DNA of 64,000 nt. Origin: an uncultured Acidobacteriota bacterium (lineage in GTDB: Bacteria; Acidobacteriota; CAIWXX01). Shown here in pieces: positions 62,922 through 63,624 of the stretch. The notes below the pieces were generated by a model that did not search any database, had not been told where the DNA came from, and worked only from the letters and a program-made list of their open reading frames with translations. The DNA is taken from assembly GCA_903916735.1 (NCBI GenBank), contig CAIWXX010000117.1:1-64000 (forward strand). The letters are read 5' to 3'. How positions within the stretch are numbered: position 1 is the stretch's first letter; the number at the start of each line of letters is the position of its first letter. The translations under genes and the position numbers were made by a program.

Positions 62922-63078
62922 CGCCGAATGTCCTCTCAGTTAATCGCATCATATGCACTCGATCATCTTATCATTTTGGTCTTATCCTCTTCATCCTGAT
63001 CGATTGGAAGTCATGATGGACCCCTTGCATAGCAGCCTGCCATGAAGCATGCTTAGTTCTAGGAAGGAAGCAACAAAC

Positions 63079-63624
63079 ATGGAATCACGGCTTCTTTTTT
63101 TGACGACCGCGGGTCTGATGATCGCCGCCGCAATATTCGCAAAAGGAGTATCGGCAGGTGAGCTTAAGCCCGGTGATCCGGCCCCAGCTTTCTCCCTTCC
63201 CGGTTCAGATGGTAATACATATAGCCTTGCCGAATTCAAAGGGAGGCGTCCTGTCGTACTGGCATGGTTTCCAAAGGCCTTCACGGGCGGTTGAACGGCC
63301 GAATGCAAGTCGCTCAGTGAGAGCGGCCCACGTATCCGCGGCTTTGATGTCGCGTATTTCGCAGCCAGTATCGACACGCCCGAAACCAATAAAAAATTCG
63401 CCGGGTCGGTAGGGGCGAACTATCCGATCCTGAGTGATCCCGGGAAGGAAATCGCAAAGGCATATGGAGTCCTTGGGCTGGCGGGACTCTATGCATCCCG
63501 GTGGACCTTCTATATCGGCGCCGATGGAAAAATCCTCTACATCGACAAAAATGTGAAACCCGGATCACACGGTCAGGACATCGTTGCCAAGTTGGAGGAA
63601 CTGGGAATAACGCGCAGGAAATAG
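63079..63624 (+). CDS. Exported peroxiredoxin with in-frame UGA (probable selenoprotein)
   Basis: Read through one TGA at 63292-63294, this is a complete 181-residue AhpC/TSA-family peroxiredoxin with a signal peptide ([20 protein letters not shown]) and a good aaggaagg site. The TGA stands exactly where the peroxidatic cysteine belongs: [11 protein letters not shown]72-TAECK, with C76 as possible resolving residue. The downstream 110 codons stay in one frame and encode the rest of the fold ([50 protein letters not shown]) up to a TAG. A hairpin starts three bases after the TGA. It would act as a periplasmic peroxide reductase. Selenocysteine insertion needs SelA/B/C/D, which are outside the window. 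Confidence 0.82.
63297..63328 (+). promoter_or_regulatory. SECIS-like hairpin immediately after the UGA codon
   Basis: GGCCG (63297-63301) pairs with CGGCC (63324-63328). In the upper part CGCTC (63311-63315) pairs with GAG plus GCG around a bulged A, closing an AGT loop 22-24 bases after the TGA. Bacterial SECIS elements sit directly downstream of UGA with an apical loop at about this distance, where SelB binds. The match is by shape and spacing only. Confidence 0.65.

Follow-up and report, generated by a model that had tools for sequence, protein, structure and literature searches.

The window, a stretch of 64,000 nucleotides of an Acidobacteriota bacterium, carries near its end a peroxiredoxin gene on the + strand (63079-63624) that runs from an ATG at 63079 to a TAG at 63622-63624. 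A probable ribosome-binding site, AGGAAGGA, lies upstream on the same strand (63061-63068), as judged from its sequence and its 10-nt spacing to the ATG. The sole in-frame interruption is a TGA at 63292-63294, which is codon 72 and directly follows FPKAFTGG; 109 open codons then run to the TAG. The translation bears out the preliminary description, according to which the frame stops at this TGA and continues beyond it, and with the TGA read as U the product has 181 residues. Automatic annotation would cut the gene in two and lose the catalytic residue, and the stub left behind would have 71 codons, not the 72 given previously. Taken alone, the open run is weak support for read-through: of the 243 runs in the window that end in TGA after 70 codons or more, 17 are followed by at least 109 open codons. 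A screen of the window for further read-through genes yielded 135 mechanical candidates, and among the matches listed none besides the peroxiredoxin was picked out. The flanking genes encode MetH, a metallopeptidase resembling YgjP, a glutamine amidotransferase in the opposite orientation, and a protein weakly resembling DUF3052, and no functional link between them and the peroxiredoxin gene was found in the operon context.

As proposed earlier, read-through completes an AhpC/TSA fold. The Pfam AhpC-TSA domain (PF00578) was matched over residues 31-154, spanning the TGA (E = 4.5e-29), and the AlphaFold model, for which 37 homologues served as input, reached a mean pLDDT of 90.8. The best fold matches of this model in the PDB were Bcp1, BcpB, AhpE, and PrxQ (E values to 3.5e-15), and the relatives with solved structures found by sequence were AhpE, BcpB, and Bcp-type peroxiredoxins. 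The catalytic motif PKAFTGGU (PxxxTxxU, residues 65-72; 63271-63294, + strand) is followed by Cys76 (63304-63306, + strand), a proposed resolving cysteine in a U-x3-C arrangement, and by Arg141 (63499-63501, + strand), which we take from family knowledge to be the active-site arginine of peroxiredoxins. P65, T69, residue 72, and Arg141 are invariant in both alignments (A1 and A2), and Cys76 is likewise a cysteine in 63/63 distinct homologues with U and 25/25 with C at residue 72. The protein thus combines the features that define the peroxiredoxin superfamily, namely an AhpC/TSA thioredoxin fold and PxxxT(S)xxC/U with a conserved Arg. Residues 1-26 (63079-63156, + strand) read by eye as a Sec signal peptide with predicted cleavage after VSA (residue 26), and the low AlphaFold confidence for residues 1-28 is in keeping with this. 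Export across the inner membrane, predicted from these residues, agrees with the preliminary description; as to its further remark that export is less usual, exported selenoproteins are not rare (e.g., periplasmic formate dehydrogenases).

The TGA had been said to replace the catalytic cysteine, and the homologues agree. The homologue set, which stood at 32 at first look, comprises 91 genes from 89 loci in many independent assemblies. At the position of residue 72, 65 of these genes have selenocysteine (Sec, encoded by TGA), 26 have Cys, and none has any other residue. An in-frame UGA that aligns with the Cys of homologues is what characterizes a bacterial selenoprotein gene, and the TGA at 63292-63294 (+ strand) occupies the peroxidatic position.

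Downstream of the TGA, folding, the rules for bacterial SECIS elements (bSECIS), and comparison with homologues delineated a hairpin at 63309-63327 (+ strand), GUCGCUC-AGUGA-GAGCGGC, with a stem of 63309-63315 paired to 63321-63327 and the loop AGUGA at 63316-63320. It had been described as a stable hairpin beginning three bases after the TGA, with its loop 22-24 bases away. The hairpin is real and its loop lies 22-26 nt after the A of the UGA, but the firm 7-bp stem begins 14 nt after the TGA, and its stability is unexceptional: the energy of -11.4 kcal/mol is not significant (z = -0.67), with shuffled sequences folding almost equally well. Additional lower pairing from three bases after the TGA was weak or absent in the folds and was dropped. 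The published bSECIS limits, as quoted in PMC13188914, are a loop of 3-9 nt, a stem of 4-16 bp, a G in the first two loop positions, a distance of 16-37 nt from the UGA, and an MFE of at most -7.5. The hairpin falls within all of them, with a 5-nt loop, a 7-bp stem, a G at loop position 2, a spacing of 21 nt, and its energy of -11.4 kcal/mol. Hairpins that obey the same rules follow 78 of the 2527 TGA triplets in the window (3.1%), and for this reason we did not accept a single hairpin as proof. A scan of the window and the region against Rfam gave no match, so that the hairpin draws no support from a curated family.

What is decisive for the SECIS assignment is the comparison of homologous sequences rather than the lone hairpin. 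Counted over distinct sequences (63 U and 25 C, 88 homologues in total), at least 6 of the 7 stem pairs are kept in 60/63 TGA genes vs 2/25 Cys genes (Fisher p = 8e-16), while TGA and Cys genes encode similar peptides. Stem cells are paired in 96% of cases in the U genes and in 57% in the C genes, and the pairing falls from 96% to 31-70% when the partner strand is slid by 1-3 bases. Compensatory changes occur in the stem, where G-C becomes A-T and C-G becomes T-A; double-change cells number 24 among the U genes, against a maximum of 11 in 1000 shuffles. The median core MFE is -11.0 kcal/mol in U genes vs -3.5 kcal/mol in C genes of similar G+C. Furthermore, CGT encodes the loop Arg in 52/57 U genes vs 1/13 C genes, and it is a minority among the Arg codons further downstream in the same genes. 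Viewed across the homologues, the hairpin is demonstrably under selection, and it tracks the TGA, not the Cys. In a tree computed with the hairpin columns left out, residue 72 changes between U and C 12 times, with at least 5 changes forced by well supported (starred) branches. The hairpin follows the switch in 4.7 of 5 independent pairs and opposes it in 0.0; the sign test gave a median p of 0.0625 and cannot reach 0.05, because only 5 independent pairs lie on starred branches.

The host assembly (98.7% complete, 183 contigs) encodes the machinery for selenocysteine insertion. A tRNA-Sec (selC) was detected at 76.2 bits, in agreement with ARAGORN (anticodon TCA), together with selA, a full-length selB, and selD, all matches being above curated cut-offs. 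The host selD (140576-141499 of contig C55) has an in-frame TGA of its own near the N-terminus (DCAGUASKLGPEDL), which is the known Sec form of SelD. A second host peroxiredoxin, AhpC-like and designated L046 (41008-41400 of contig C24, - strand), carries a TGA at the peroxidatic Cys (PADFTFVUATEF) with a strong hairpin closely downstream, and is probably another selenoprotein. In the eight relatives that carry a family member, some or all of the Sec machinery is present in every U-form genome, and the Cys form is also present in Sec-capable genomes. selA was not seen in one of the four U-form relatives (G045) and the tRNA-Sec is only borderline in another (G001), which probably reflects assembly gaps or divergence.

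These data bear on two readings in which no selenocysteine is made. A TGA written for TGC or TGT through a sequencing error, or a genuine nonsense mutation in a decaying gene, might be entertained given that the underlying assembly is a draft in 183 contigs. This reading is already refuted by the homologues, since 65 genes from independent assemblies share the same TGA at the same codon; the hairpin is moreover conserved and compensated, and the frame after the TGA stays intact in the homologues, leaving error or decay a practically negligible chance. Equally, the TGA might be read as an ordinary amino acid such as Trp, or passed by leaky read-through without selenium. Nothing specific favours this, although the long open frame would be compatible with it, and homologues lacking the TGA have Cys, never Trp or any other residue, at codon 72. 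The presence of tRNA-Sec, selA, selB, and selD, and a downstream stem that persists in TGA genes but not in Cys genes, also speak against it, and we consider it very improbable. We are thus highly confident, on the strength of the comparative sequence evidence, that the window gene encodes an Acidobacteriota selenoprotein peroxiredoxin with Sec at residue 72.

From the parts present and the comparative signal, SelB carrying Sec-tRNA-Sec would bind the hairpin that closely follows the UGA and thereby place Sec at residue 72, and the predicted signal peptide would take the enzyme across the inner membrane. By analogy with peroxiredoxin chemistry, attack of the selenolate on a peroxide would yield a selenenic acid. 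This would most likely be resolved by Cys76, which lies one turn of the helix past the Sec, into an intramolecular selenylsulfide that a thioredoxin-like reductant would reopen. The resolving Cys of PrxQ lies five residues after the peroxidatic Cys (PMC5811025), whereas Cys76 is at +4; the spacing therefore differs, and we put forward the resolving role as a proposal. The same difference, with a weak match to the NCBIfam model of ResA (37.5 bits), could suggest that this genuine selenoprotein serves mainly as an envelope thiol-disulfide oxidoreductase or a redox sensor. The ResA score is nevertheless far under its cut-off of 170, the full PxxxTxxU and Arg141 are invariant, and peroxidases (AhpE, BcpB, Bcp1, and PrxQ) head the matches by sequence and by fold. 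We regard a main role as oxidoreductase or sensor as unlikely, and peroxidase activity is what the chemistry of the relatives would lead one to expect of the window protein.

TxxU selenoprotein peroxiredoxins have been known for more than 20 years, and the window gene adds a member. Earlier surveys counted Sec-containing peroxiredoxins (Prx, PF00578, TxxU): 43 sequences came from the Sargasso Sea (PMC1088965), 12 from bacterial genomes, in which Cys had repeatedly given way to Sec (PMC1794560), and 253 from GOS (PMC2398784). The family was reviewed in 2026 (PMC13188914), and the presence of selenoproteins in Acidobacteria has been on record since 2006. In common with these proteins, the window protein has the AhpC/TSA fold and a PxxxTxxU motif whose Sec occupies the peroxidatic position, and its gene has a downstream bSECIS. 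Its lineage differs in its apparent signal peptide, its invariant Cys at +4, and its occurrence mainly in Acidobacteriota, Planctomycetota, and Verrucomicrobiota. No NCBIfam model reached its cut-off for the window protein. PrxU, the Sec peroxiredoxin of Eubacterium acidaminophilum (NF040737, peroxi_PrxU), scored 34.4 against a cut-off of 270, which marks a distant lineage. The closest profile was PrxQ/BCP, the thioredoxin-dependent thiol peroxidase (NF006960; 3.4e-21, 75.8 against a cut-off of 140). PrxQ is also among the top fold matches and has its second Cys in the same helix, but the window protein has Sec for Cys, and the second Cys of its lineage is at +4 in 88/88 distinct homologues, not at +5; since PrxQs without that Cys exist, only the +5 Cys hallmark of PrxQ is wanting. 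Among solved structures, Mycobacterium tuberculosis AhpE gave the best match by sequence (5e-16; rank 5 by fold). Unlike the window protein, this 1-Cys enzyme has CQGE after the peroxidatic Cys and lacks a Cys at +4, Sec, and a signal peptide. A literature search found no paper on an exported U-x3-C peroxiredoxin lineage, and predicted export and the invariant second Cys four residues after the Sec are what distinguish the window gene.

The nearest neighbours of the window gene in the tree are Acidobacteriota, and further members of the lineage belong to Planctomycetota and Verrucomicrobiota. The nearest relative genome, G001, is of the same family and carries a homologue (L018); downstream of the TGA, the DNA of L018 is identical to that of L097, from a public Acidobacteria assembly. 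When 199 genomes of relatives were sampled, almost all from the phylum of the window genome, the family proper (scores of about 190 bits or higher) was mostly of the TGA form. Viral contigs yielded only two distant homologues. We tentatively suggest, while thinking it somewhat doubtful, that the lineage forms a separate subclass of exported peroxiredoxins using a U-x3-C selenylsulfide, spread over the three phyla with many Sec/Cys replacements in both directions. With roughly 65 Sec and 26 Cys orthologues and clean gain and loss of the SECIS, the lineage is a good natural data set on the timing and causes of Sec/Cys exchange in bacteria, and it lends itself to the study of a putative selenium-dependent envelope peroxidase in common soil and groundwater phyla.

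Other peroxiredoxin lineages with a single in-frame TGA were seen in the relatives (e.g., G134, G116, G107, G159, G088, G125, and G167), one of them recurring in numerous members of one genus, and selenoprotein peroxiredoxins look common in Acidobacteriota. Four loci titled Akkermansia muciniphila, Cyanobacteria, or Klebsiella pneumoniae (L076, L080, L093, and L095) are placed by the tree with Verrucomicrobiota or Acidobacteriota, and are probably mislabelled metagenome assemblies. Finally, two gp11 Acidobacteria genomes carry an adjacent pair of TGA peroxiredoxin genes of this family (L067, 3001-4323; L073, 3010-4462).
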